The translations under genes were made by a program, and so were the position numbers. A stretch of 64,000 nt of DNA. It comes from Pedosphaera parvula Ellin514 (GTDB taxonomy: Bacteria > Verrucomicrobiota > Verrucomicrobiia > Limisphaerales > Pedosphaeraceae). The stretch covers positions 1 to 64,000 of the forward strand of contig NZ_ABOX02000003.1 of NCBI RefSeq assembly GCF_000172555.1, given 5' to 3'. The notes beneath the pieces are model-generated. The model ran no database searches and was not told where the DNA came from. It saw nothing but the letters and a program-made list of their open reading frames with translations. This document shows positions 2,584 to 49,731 of the stretch, piece after piece; positions within the stretch are counted from its first letter, which is position 1; the number at the start of each line of letters is the position of its first letter.

Positions 2584-3801
2584 ATGGCTCTAATTGTCCA
2601 AAAATACGGTGGCACTTCGGTGGGAAATCCGGAGCGCATCAAGAACGTTGCGAGGCGTGTTGCCGGTTATCGCGCCAAAGGTGACCAGGTGGTCGTGGTG
2701 GTTTCTGCGATGAGCGGAGTCACTGACAATTTGATCAAGCTGGCCAACGAAATCATGCCACTCCCCACCGAACGGGAGATGGACATGCTGCTGGCGACTG
2801 GTGAACAAACCACCATCGCGCTGACAGCAATGGCCTTGCATGCGCTGGGCTTGCCAGCGGTTTCGCTCACAGGTGCACAGGCCGGGATTGTGACGGATGG
2901 AGTTCACACCAAGGCGAAGATTCAGAACATTACACCGAAGCAGGTCCATACACTTTTGGATGAAGGCAAGGTCGTGATTGTGGCGGGCTTTCAAGGGCAA
3001 ACTCAGGAAGGCCACATCACAACGCTTGGACGTGGCGGATCAGATTTGACTGCCATTGCTCTTGCAGCCGCGCTCAAAGCGGATTTGTGTCAGATTTATA
3101 CGGATGTGGATGGCGTTTATACTGCTGATCCGCGCATCGTGCCGAACGCCAAAAAACTGGAGGAGATTTCCTATGACGAAATGCTCGAACTGGCCAGCCT
3201 CGGGGCGAAGGTGATGCAGTCGCGTTCGGTTGAATTTGCAAAGAAATTTGGCGTCGTGTTTGAAGTTCGTTCCAGCCTGAACGAGAATCCAGGAACCATT
3301 GTGAAAGAAGAAACGAAGAATATGGAAGACGTCGTCATTCGCGGCGTCGCACTTGATAAAAACCAGGCCAAGGTGACCTTGGTTGCGGTGCCGGACAAAC
3401 CGGGAGTTGCCGCACACATTTTCAAAGCCATTGGCGAAGCAGCGATCAATGTGGATATGATCGTGCAGAACATCAGCCATGGCTCGGGCACTCCGGCGAC
3501 GGACCTCTCCTTCACGATTGATAAGCCCGACCTGCTCAAGGCACGCAAAGTGATCGATGGATTGAAAATGTCAGTCGGTTTTCGGGAAGCAATTGCTGAT
3601 GAAAAGATCGGCAAGCTTTCCATTGTTGGAGTGGGCATGCGTAGTCATTCGGGGGTGGCGGCGAAGATGTTTGAGACCCTCGCGAAGGAGGGAGTGAACA
3701 TCGACATGATCTCCACCAGCGAAATCAAAATTTCCGTGGTCATTGATCTGGCCAAGGGTGAACAGGCCACCCGGGCGCTGCATACTGCGTTTATTGGTTG
3801 A
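2584..3801 (+). CDS. lysC: Aspartate kinase
   Basis: Phosphorylates aspartate, the committed step towards lysine, threonine and methionine. The kinase motif KYGGTSVGN is at residues 7-15. The catalytic core (including TLGRGGSDLTAIALAAAL and YTDVDGVYTADPR) runs to about residue 245. Two C-terminal ACT domains follow (from VALVAVP-like DKPGVAAHIF and from KLSIVGVGMRSHSGVA), the usual site of lysine or threonine feedback. At 405 residues it has the typical length for the ACT-regulated monofunctional class. It starts 18 bases after thrC, consistent with a hom-thrC-lysC operon. Downstream lies the leader region of leuA. No lysine riboswitch was seen within the window. Confidence 0.96.
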   Translation: MALIVQKYGGTSVGNPERIKNVARRVAGYRAKGDQVVVVVSAMSGVTDNLIKLANEIMPLPTEREMDMLLATGEQTTIALTAMALHALGLPAVSLTGAQAGIVTDGVHTKAKIQNITPKQVHTLLDEGKVVIVAGFQGQTQEGHITTLGRGGSDLTAIALAAALKADLCQIYTDVDGVYTADPRIVPNAKKLEEISYDEMLELASLGAKVMQSRSVEFAKKFGVVFEVRSSLNENPGTIVKEETKNMEDVVIRGVALDKNQAKVTLVAVPDKPGVAAHIFKAIGEAAINVDMIVQNISHGSGTPATDLSFTIDKPDLLKARKVIDGLKMSVGFREAIADEKIGKLSIVGVGMRSHSGVAAKMFETLAKEGVNIDMISTSEIKISVVIDLAKGEQATRALHTAFIG

Positions 3802-3833
3802 CCCCAACCGGCGGAAGAGCTAATAGTAACCTT

Positions 3834-3908
3834 GTGAATTGCAATTTGAACAACCAACTGCTGCTAACAAATGCGCTGCTGCTGAGCAGCGTGGCGGTTG
3901 GGTTTTAG
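3834..3908 (+). CDS. Leucine-rich leader peptide of leuA
   Basis: A 24-codon frame starting at GTG 3834 and ending at TAG 3906-3908 encodes MNCNLNNQLLLTN followed by ALLLSSVAVGF. It has two runs of three leucine codons (CTG CTG CTA at 3858-3866 and CTG CTG CTG at 3876-3884) and two valine codons. A TTG at 3846 is an alternative start. A weak GGAAGAG lies about 15 bases upstream of the GTG. Position, codon content and the stop just before the attenuator hairpin fit a leuL-like control peptide. The assignment is inferred from arrangement rather than sequence similarity to enteric leuL. Confidence 0.75.
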   Translation: MNCNLNNQLLLTNALLLSSVAVGF

Positions 3909-3961
3909 TCTGTTCACGAGAATTTCGAGACCCCACTGCCAAAACGGCGGTGGGGTTTTTT
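3851..3961 (+). promoter_or_regulatory. Transcription attenuator of leuA
   Basis: Three mutually exclusive pairings can be drawn. Segment 1, AACCAAC at 3850-3856, pairs with segment 2, GTTGGGTT at 3897-3904, closing over a GCTGCT/AGCAGC hairpin. Segment 2 in the form GGCGGTTGGG (3893-3902) can instead pair 9 of 10 with segment 3, CCCCACTGCC (3931-3940). Segment 3 can pair with GGCGGTGGGG (3946-3955), followed by six T: an intrinsic terminator. Leucine codons lie over and just after segment 1, and the leader stop codon is just after segment 2. A ribosome stalled for leucine would free segment 2 and prevent termination; one reaching the stop would cover it and allow termination. Confidence 0.8.
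3931..3961 (+). terminator. Attenuator terminator before leuA
   Basis: Ten-base-pair stem CCCCACTGCC / GGCGGTGGGG (one G-U pair) with a five-base loop and a run of six T. It lies 63 bases before the leuA start and is the terminating hairpin of the leader described at 3851-3961. It may also end lysC transcription. Confidence 0.85.
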
Positions 3962-4023: not shown

Positions 4024-5598
4024 ATGAAAGATAAACGGATTATCATCTTCGACACGACGCTCCGCGATGGCGAGCAATGCCCCGGCGCCTCAATGAATTT
4101 ACGCGAAAAATTGGAAGTGGCCCGCCAACTCGCTCGTCTGAAGGTGGACGTGATCGAGGCTGGTTTTCCAGTTATCAGCGACGGCGACTTCGAAGCCGTT
4201 CATACCATCGCGAAGGAAATCAAAGGGCCCGTCATTTGCGGTTTGGCTCGTTGCGTTACGAAGGATATTGATGCCGCAGGTGCCGCATTGAAGCCCGCCG
4301 GCAAGAAGGGACGTATCCATGTCTTTTTGGCGACTTCCAAGATTCATCGCGAATTCAAGCTCGGCAAAGCGCAGGATGAAATCATTCGTCTCGCAGTGGA
4401 GGGCGTGAAGCGTGCCAAGTCTTACGTACAGGATGTGGAGTTTTCGCCCGAAGACGGTTCGCGCACGGAACCTGAATTTCTCGTCCAGGTTTGCAAGGCA
4501 GTAGTCGCTGCCGGTGCAACCACAGTTAATATTCCTGATACCGTTGGCTGGGCTGTGCCGGAACAATACGGCGCCTTGATCCAGCGTTTGCATGATGAAG
4601 TGCCGGAGTTCCGGAGTGGCAAGGCTATAATCAGCGTTCATTGCCACAATGATTTGGGCTTGGCGGTTGCCAACTCACTCGCTGCGGTGCGTGCCGGTGC
4701 GCGTCAGGTCGAATGCACGCTCAATGGCATCGGGGAGCGTGCCGGCAACGCTGCGCTCGAGGAAATTTCCATGGCCATCAAAACACGCAGCGATTTCTTC
4801 GGCGGAGTCACCTGTGGCGTGAATACGCGTGAAATCTTGAAGAGTTCCCGCCTGGTTTCACGCATGAGCGGTTTGGTCGTGCAACGCAGCAAGGCCATCG
4901 TTGGAGAAAATGCCTTCGCTCACTCGAGCGGCATTCATCAGGACGGCATTTTGAAGAAACGCGAGACTTACGAAATCATGGATCCCAAGGAGGTCGGTTG
5001 GGGCGGAACCGAATTGCCATTGACCAAACACAGTGGACGCGCAGCCGTTGCCTCCCGCTTGAAGCATCTTGGTTTCAAAATGAATGAAGCGGATGTGCAG
5101 GCGATTTTCGCCCGGTTTAAGGAAATTGGAGATAAGAAAAAGTTTGTTTACGACGACGATTTGGCCGCCCTCGTCGAAGGTCAGATTACAGAAGTGCCTG
5201 AAACCTGGTCCTTGGAATATCTCAACGTAACCAGCGGAAGCCAAACTGTTCCCACCGCCACCGTGCGGTTGAAAAGGGTCAGCAAAAAAGATAAAGGTGA
5301 ACCAGAGGTTCTTCAGGACGCGGGCATTGGTGATGGTCCGGTGGACGCAACCTTAAAGGCCATCGATCGACTCGCCAAAACTCGCGGACGCTTGATGGAC
5401 TATTCACTTCGGGCAGTGTCGCAAGGCAAGGATGCGCTCGGGGAAGTAACTGTCAAAGTGAACTTCGATGGTGGAGAACTTGTTACCGGCAAAGGTGCCA
5501 GCACAGACGTTATCGAAGCCAGCGCGCGAGCTTATCTGAACGCGGTGAATCGCTTTCTGAGTGAAGGATCCAAAGGCCAAAGGTCTTCGCAGCCTTGA
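4024..5598 (+). CDS. leuA: 2-isopropylmalate synthase
   Basis: Condenses acetyl-CoA with 2-oxoisovalerate, the first step of leucine synthesis. The DRE-TIM metallolyase core starts with IFDTTLRDGEQCPG (residues 8-21), contains the metal-binding SVHCHNDLG, and then LNGIGERAGNAALEE. The HSSGIHQDG stretch belongs to the linker, and the C-terminal regulatory (LeuA dimer) domain covers about residues 385-510 and should bind leucine. At 524 residues it is of normal length. Citramalate synthase is the closest alternative, but the leucine-codon leader immediately upstream supports LeuA. No strong Shine-Dalgarno is visible. A hairpin terminator follows. Confidence 0.93.
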   Translation: MKDKRIIIFDTTLRDGEQCPGASMNLREKLEVARQLARLKVDVIEAGFPVISDGDFEAVHTIAKEIKGPVICGLARCVTKDIDAAGAALKPAGKKGRIHVFLATSKIHREFKLGKAQDEIIRLAVEGVKRAKSYVQDVEFSPEDGSRTEPEFLVQVCKAVVAAGATTVNIPDTVGWAVPEQYGALIQRLHDEVPEFRSGKAIISVHCHNDLGLAVANSLAAVRAGARQVECTLNGIGERAGNAALEEISMAIKTRSDFFGGVTCGVNTREILKSSRLVSRMSGLVVQRSKAIVGENAFAHSSGIHQDGILKKRETYEIMDPKEVGWGGTELPLTKHSGRAAVASRLKHLGFKMNEADVQAIFARFKEIGDKKKFVYDDDLAALVEGQITEVPETWSLEYLNVTSGSQTVPTATVRLKRVSKKDKGEPEVLQDAGIGDGPVDATLKAIDRLAKTRGRLMDYSLRAVSQGKDALGEVTVKVNFDGGELVTGKGASTDVIEASARAYLNAVNRFLSEGSKGQRSSQP

Positions 5599-49125: not shown

Positions 49126-49731
49126 ACTGCTCCTTTGCATTTTTTGTTAAACCGTCACGTCACTGCAAATCGGTGACAGATGCAGTCTCTGTTCTCAATA
49201 ACGCACCCATGTCAGACTATTTCAAAAGAAAACGCCATATCTTTGAAAATAGTTTCAGTGTCCGCTGTATCCGGGTTGAGAATACATCTGCATTGCATCG
49301 TTGTGGATGTTTCCCATCAATGCCGGAGCACATTACCCCATTTGCAATGTGAGCCTCTGCGAGAGAGATTTTCTTCGGAAGAGGAACACCGGCGGATTGA
49401 AGTTTTTGCCGCTTCCTTCAAAACTTTCTGTTGGTTCAGCGAGGGCGAAAGTCCTCGGGAAGGCACCCTGAATCCAGCGGTCGCCGGCAGGGGGAATCAG
49501 ATCGGCAGGGACTTTTGGTGCAAAGGTCCTTTGTCAAAGGTCGAAGGAGAGCGGCGTCAGACCTTGAACGATCATTTCCTGCCTCTTCCAATTCTTTTCT
49601 CCTCCGCTTAACTCCACCATCATTACTGATTCGCTCAACCTCCCTGTTCAATCCCACGGCTTGGGGGCTTCTCCCCAATACCTGCGCCTCTTTCCGCGAA
49701 CTATGTTTGGTTGGTTGAGGCTGATATTTTC
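49126..49731. other. Intergenic stretch without a supported gene
   Basis: About 600 bases hold several overlapping short frames of unusual composition, none with a domain or a ribosome site. A stretch at 49519-49545 repeats AAAGGTC twice (GCAAAGGTCCTTTGTCAAAGG). Nothing else is recognised. Confidence 0.4.

Follow-up and report, generated by a model that had tools for sequence, protein, structure and literature searches.

A predicted leader-peptide attenuator of leuA, apparently leaderless, in Verrucomicrobiota

In the window (the whole 64-kb stretch of DNA that was analysed), a short leucine-rich reading frame and a hairpin followed by six T lie between lysC and leuA. The question raised by this locus is whether the two act together as a leader-peptide attenuator of leuA, as the original prediction held, or whether the hairpin serves another purpose and the frame is there by coincidence.

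The leuA locus, its leader frame and its promoter

The genes on the + strand are, in order, hom, thrC (with a broken frame), lysC and, after a gap of 222 nt in which the whole element sits, leuA (Table 1). The product of the window leuA scored 702 bits against TIGR00973 (cut-off 599), and this NCBIfam assignment ruled out cimA as the identity of the gene. The region upstream of the citramalate synthase paralogue of the same genome (G000:C40) was without a leader. The thrC gene (1472-2565) is split over three frames, with two frameshifts near 1735 and 1870, so that either the gene is broken or the assembly contains errors here. Elsewhere in the window, a CyVA-1 RNA (RF02965) was detected at 49499-49574, with a score of 59.1 bits.

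The leader frame starts with GTG, comprises 24 codons, ends with TAG at 3906-3908 and encodes the peptide VNCNLNNQLLLTNALLLSSVAVGF. Its leucine codons are located at 3846, 3858-3866 and 3876-3884, and the 24 codons with two runs of three leucines that had been predicted could be read directly. The terminator formed by segments 3 and 4 ends 62 nt upstream of leuA. Folding of the window RNA gave a z-score of -5.9, and none of 200 shuffled sequences folded as well. When both strands of the 64-kb window were scanned for a promoter, a short frame and a terminator in combination, no second site was found besides the leuA leader. The element is not considered to be due to chance, because of this fold, its being the sole site in the scan, and the covariance-model matches in 57 of 58 genomes described below.

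Table 1. Features of the lysC-leuA region, in window positions
Feature	Position	Strand	Basis
lysC, aspartate kinase, upstream neighbour	2584..3801	+	presumably transcribed separately from leuA
-35 box TTGACC of the leader's own putative promoter; overlaps the lysC stop codon	3798..3803	+	consensus, relatives
Putative -10 element (TAATAG at spacer 17 or AATAGT at spacer 18)	3821..3827	+	T in 75% and A in 70% of 100 leaders, at +23/+24 relative to TTGAC
Leader peptide frame, GTG start at the predicted transcription start; MNCNLNNQLLLTNALLLSSVAVGF	3834..3908	+	sequence and relatives
Segment 1 (CCAACTGCT), holds the first leucine codons of the first run; pairs with 3893-3901	3854..3862	+	fold, weak covariation
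Inner hairpin over the second leucine run, 3873-3880 with 3885-3892	3873..3892	+	fold and covariation
Segment 2 (GGCGGTTGGGTT), encodes the conserved ..AVGF peptide end	3893..3904	+	alignment and covariation
Segment 3 (GACCCCACTGCC)	3929..3940	+	covariation
Segment 4 (GGCGGTGGGG, 3946-3955) and T6 tail; predicted intrinsic terminator with segment 3	3946..3961	+	covariation
leuA, 2-isopropylmalate synthase (TIGR00973 type)	4024..5598	+	profile match

Of 118 leuA leaders, 103 had an exact TTGAC at a distance of 80-150 nt upstream of their stop codon. It was followed at 34-40 nt by an in-frame start codon in 100 of the 118 (ATG in 52, GTG in 47, TTG in one), the commonest spacing being 36 nt. At neighbouring distances from TTGAC, start codons occurred per position at about one sixth of this rate. 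The same spacing was observed in 15 of 18 scored leaders of the second leuA type and in 21 of 22 ilvB leaders, both of which are described below. The T and A preference at +23/+24 in the 100 leaders aligned on TTGAC corresponds to a 17-nt spacer; in the window itself, the -10 hexamer is a poor one in both of its registers.

The leader start codon is located about 7 nt downstream of the -10 box, the distance at which transcription normally starts, and hence the leader mRNA appears to be leaderless, as judged from the promoter consensus and this spacing. The same attenuator might instead carry a short 5' untranslated region and rely on initiation independent of a Shine-Dalgarno site. The range of the TTGAC-to-start spacing (34 to 40 nt) would agree with such an arrangement, as would the fact that initiation on transcripts reading through from lysC would be internal. 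However, with the most frequent spacing, 36 nt, the start codon coincides with the expected +1, and inspection by eye revealed no Shine-Dalgarno site upstream of the leader start; a short untranslated region was thus considered rather unlikely, and the leaderless reading is retained here.

Leader RNA structure and geometry among relatives

Relatives of leuA were gathered from the genome collection, across the order and the phylum, and 78 leaders were aligned (alignment A1), in which covariation was scored against 500 shuffles and slid controls. The terminator 3:4 was paired in 96.9% of cells with double changes in 8 of 12 pairs, the antiterminator 2:3 in 82.6% of cells with double changes in 7 of 12 pairs, and the inner hairpin in 84.1% of cells with double changes in 6 of 7 pairs. 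For each of these three stems, none of the 500 shuffles reached the observed covariation score, and the score was above that of every slid control. One central pair of 2:3 (column 84 with 124) was unpaired in 73 of the 78 leaders. The outer 1:2 stem, which encloses the inner hairpin, was paired in 75.8% of cells; because 20 of 500 shuffles were at or above its score, it was graded as the weak part of the structure. Pairing energies were better for the leaders' own segments than for swapped ones (2:3, p=4e-5; 3:4, p=5e-11; 1:2, p=4e-5, all calculated with kinship ignored). The predicted antiterminator and terminator are mutually exclusive, and both are conserved by covariation.

These results are concordant with most of the original prediction, which had given segments 2, 3 and 4, their pairings 2:3 and 3:4 and the T6 tail as they are found here. 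The predicted pairing of segment 1 with segment 2 is weakly supported, and the position of segment 1 was corrected from 3850-3856 to 3854-3862, about 4 nt downstream. The proposed three-state RNA was borne out in its exclusive 2:3 and 3:4 states, but had overlooked the inner hairpin. The alignment of the leuA upstream regions of relatives also displayed the conserved leucine-rich frame and the covarying stems that had been expected there, the 1:2 stem only weakly so.

Most upstream regions of type-1 leuA, the type found in the window, encode within the order a leader with the pattern V/M-N-x-x-L-N-x-R-L-L-L-x-x-A-L-L-L-x-x-A-V-G-F followed by a stop codon, mostly 15-25 nt upstream of a terminator of the CCCCACTGCC type. 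A run of three leucines was present in 60 of the 78 aligned leaders and the leucine content was 29%, values that do not constitute an independent test of enrichment, as the A1 leaders were picked partly on leucine content; the leaders of the second leuA type provide a cleaner test. The leucine runs differ in position and codons among leaders, and the frame, the runs, the stop position and the start codon are kept despite the sequence variation. The stop codon starts 2 nt after segment 2 in all 78 leaders, and in 73 of them the distance from the start of the last leucine codon to segment 2 is 11 or 14 nt. The leucine codons and the stop are therefore placed as had been anticipated for ribosome stalling, a geometry which fits a model in which a terminating ribosome would cover segment 2 and a stalled one would not. 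It is this comparison of relatives that establishes the predicted leader frame, its leucine codons, the exclusive pairing of 2:3 and 3:4, the fixed spacing and the promoter position.

Distribution of the element and leaders of ilvB

A covariance model (R1) was trained on the type-1 leuA leaders only (78 relatives) and run on 58 genomes of the order. Matches with E <= 4e-8 were obtained in 57 of the 58 genomes, the exception being G037; the E-value for the window, which was among the training sequences, was 1.2e-34. Match positions and leuA positions were compared by hand. In the 57 genomes, the matched element preceded leuA wherever the gene was present on the contig: it was upstream of type-1 leuA in 27 genomes, upstream of a different leuA in 29, and at a contig end in one (G029:C57, 118 nt from the end). 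In one of the 29 (G033), the type-2 leuA after the leader is cut by an assembly gap; an apparent location of this leader (G033:C104) before a sigma factor gene was rejected, as the leader precedes the start of the gap-cut leuA.

One example of the second leuA type, L110, proved to encode a TIGR00970/PRK03739 2-isopropylmalate synthase with 29.6% identity to the window LeuA. R1 found leaders before type-2 leuA in genomes outside its training set, with E-values down to 3e-33, and these leaders (L263-L282) are of the same kind as that of the window, for example VNGNLNARLLLLNALLLSGAAVGF in L268. Both leuA types are present in G001, which belongs to the same genus as the window, each with its own leader (L083 and L276). 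In family f1, lysC is directly upstream of the leader and type-1 leuA in G000 and G001, and upstream of the leader and type-2 leuA in G005 (lysC end with 82% identity over 87 residues) and G002 (65% identity over the last 23 lysC residues). Because both leuA types follow lysC in this family, the simplest reading would be that the enzyme gene was swapped in place, and that lysC and the attenuator stayed.

Twenty further leuA loci of the phylum outside the order (L174-L177 and L207-L231, in part) had the frame, terminator and promoter, with less similar sequence. In the same scan, neither leader nor terminator was seen before the leuA genes of Akkermansia-like members of the same class (a large part of L178-L202). 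The predicted attenuator is thus a conserved feature of an order of Verrucomicrobiota and, in part, of lineages outside that order.

A valine-rich frame was present upstream of ilvB in all 22 relatives examined (L283-L304), for example MIIVRQIVVVVALVVVAGAAAGYCRM in L293. It was located 11-22 nt upstream of a terminator of the type CCCACGGCTGG..GGTCGTGGG, and its start codon was 34-40 nt after TTGAC in 21 of the 22, so that the ilvB leader is also predicted to be leaderless. An ilvB search of the window's genome gave no strong match, nor did the leuC model TIGR00170 in these genomes. No such leader element was found upstream of hisD (17 loci) or trpE (17 loci) in the same genomes.

The extensive conserved RNA structure, including the inner hairpin, might also indicate a switch that senses a metabolite or tRNA (a riboswitch or T-box), or an attenuator bound by a protein, with the short frame being incidental. 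Rfam searches at the gathering threshold and at E<10 gave nothing above chance-level matches at the leuA leader site, with no T-box, riboswitch or described leader family among them. The retention of frame, leucine runs, stop and start codon in leaders of varying sequence, and the common design of the ilvB leaders with valine codons, also argue against such a switch, which was judged very unlikely. The recurrent C-terminal A-V-G-[FHVC] and N-terminal L-N patterns of the leaders might suggest that the nascent peptide arrests the ribosome in response to leucine itself, instead of stalling being limited by codons. The conserved C-terminus is, however, encoded by segment 2 and is accounted for by the pairing of that segment with segment 3, the leucine runs vary in position and codons, and the ilvB leaders follow the same design with valine instead of leucine; nascent-chain arrest in place of codon-limited stalling was accordingly judged very unlikely as well. 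That the hairpin is a mere terminator of the lysC operon beside a coincidental leucine-rich frame was rejected as hardly credible. In the window, lysC does lie on the same strand, and its end at 3801 is 127 nt from the hairpin, but lysC was detected upstream in few loci only (G000, G001, G002, G005 and one more), whereas 57 of 58 genomes retain the element, upstream of leuA in every case in which the contig includes that gene. In addition, the hairpin is separated from lysC by a promoter, and 2:3 covaries as well as 3:4.

Proposed mechanism and relation to known attenuators

The element is very probably a ribosome-mediated transcription attenuator of leuA, with its own sigma-70-type promoter, a leaderless leader and stalling dependent on Leu-tRNA. 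From the arrangement of the sequence we infer a transcription start at the start codon, translation of the leader, ribosome stalling and a response to leucine, as follows. The promoter at 3798-3827 would drive the leader and leuA, with RNA polymerase starting no more than one or two bases away from the leader start codon and the ribosome loading on the 5' end. With ample Leu-tRNA, the ribosome would reach the stop codon at 3906 and cover segment 2, and transcription would end near 3961 at the 3:4 hairpin. If charged Leu-tRNA is scarce, the ribosome would stall on the leucine codons at 3858-3866 or 3876-3884 and so cover segment 1 or the inner hairpin; pairing of segment 2 with segment 3 would then allow transcription of leuA. 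Without translation, 1:2 and the inner hairpin would form, and 3:4 would again terminate.

Attenuation by leader peptides is an established mechanism, as in the proteobacterial leu leaders. The proteobacterial leader (leuL; Rfam Leu_leader, RF00512) likewise has a leader with leucine codons, segments 1-4 and an exclusive antiterminator and terminator, and it controls leuA. The element described here differs from it in the lack of a covariance-model match, the promoter directly before the leader, the absence of a visible Shine-Dalgarno site, the extra hairpin over the second leucine run, and the phylum. The 5' end of the attenuator RNA coincides with the leader start codon in the trpL of Sinorhizobium meliloti as well (PMC7298713), a tryptophan leader of Alphaproteobacteria in which leaderlessness is established, whereas it is predicted here. 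The ilvBNC attenuator of Corynebacterium glutamicum (PMC11857589) is similar by design, being a branched-chain amino acid leader for which a leaderless mRNA and control by three hairpins are discussed, and differs in belonging to Actinobacteria and preceding ilvB, not leuA. The actinobacterial LEU element (PMC1262725) shares a frame with leucine codons upstream of leuA, but forms a pseudoknot in which the base stem pairs the leucine codons with the leuA Shine-Dalgarno site, without a 2:3/3:4 terminator switch. In Firmicutes, the attenuator peptide of the Staphylococcus aureus branched-chain operon is reported to be leucine-rich and to repress branched-chain biosynthesis (PMC5794164).

According to a survey from 2010, which itself added Firmicutes, leader-peptide attenuation had until then been demonstrated in Proteobacteria and Actinobacteria only (PMC2965389). 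The original prediction knew of no described case in this phylum; none was found in Verrucomicrobiota in the open-access papers searched either, which does not prove priority. The attenuator reading is well supported; its mechanism is classical, and the family and the phylum are new as far as searched. A conserved case in Verrucomicrobiota, with more than 100 comparable examples, would widen the range of leader-peptide attenuation. Verrucomicrobiota probably possess their own family of branched-chain attenuators (leucine before leuA, valine before ilvB), either evolved there or anciently inherited and all of them leaderless, in which the leu switch outlived an exchange between two leuA families that are about 30% identical; independent use of leader-peptide attenuation in the phylum is plausible. 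If the leaders are indeed leaderless, ribosome loading at the 5' end may recur as a means of coupling polymerase and first ribosome. An exchange of leuA types under a common switch would point to the control element, and not the enzyme, as the part of the locus that remained stable.

Similar frames were also observed outside the phylum. In a Phycisphaeraceae genome (Planctomycetota), MNELLLSLELLLTPAC and a terminator are located upstream of leuA (L016), possibly as an attenuator in a sister phylum. Leucine-rich frames located 16-31 nt before a terminator-like hairpin were present upstream of several leuA genes in Bacteroidota (L021, L027, L028, L034, L038, L043, L056, L057, L062 and L071).
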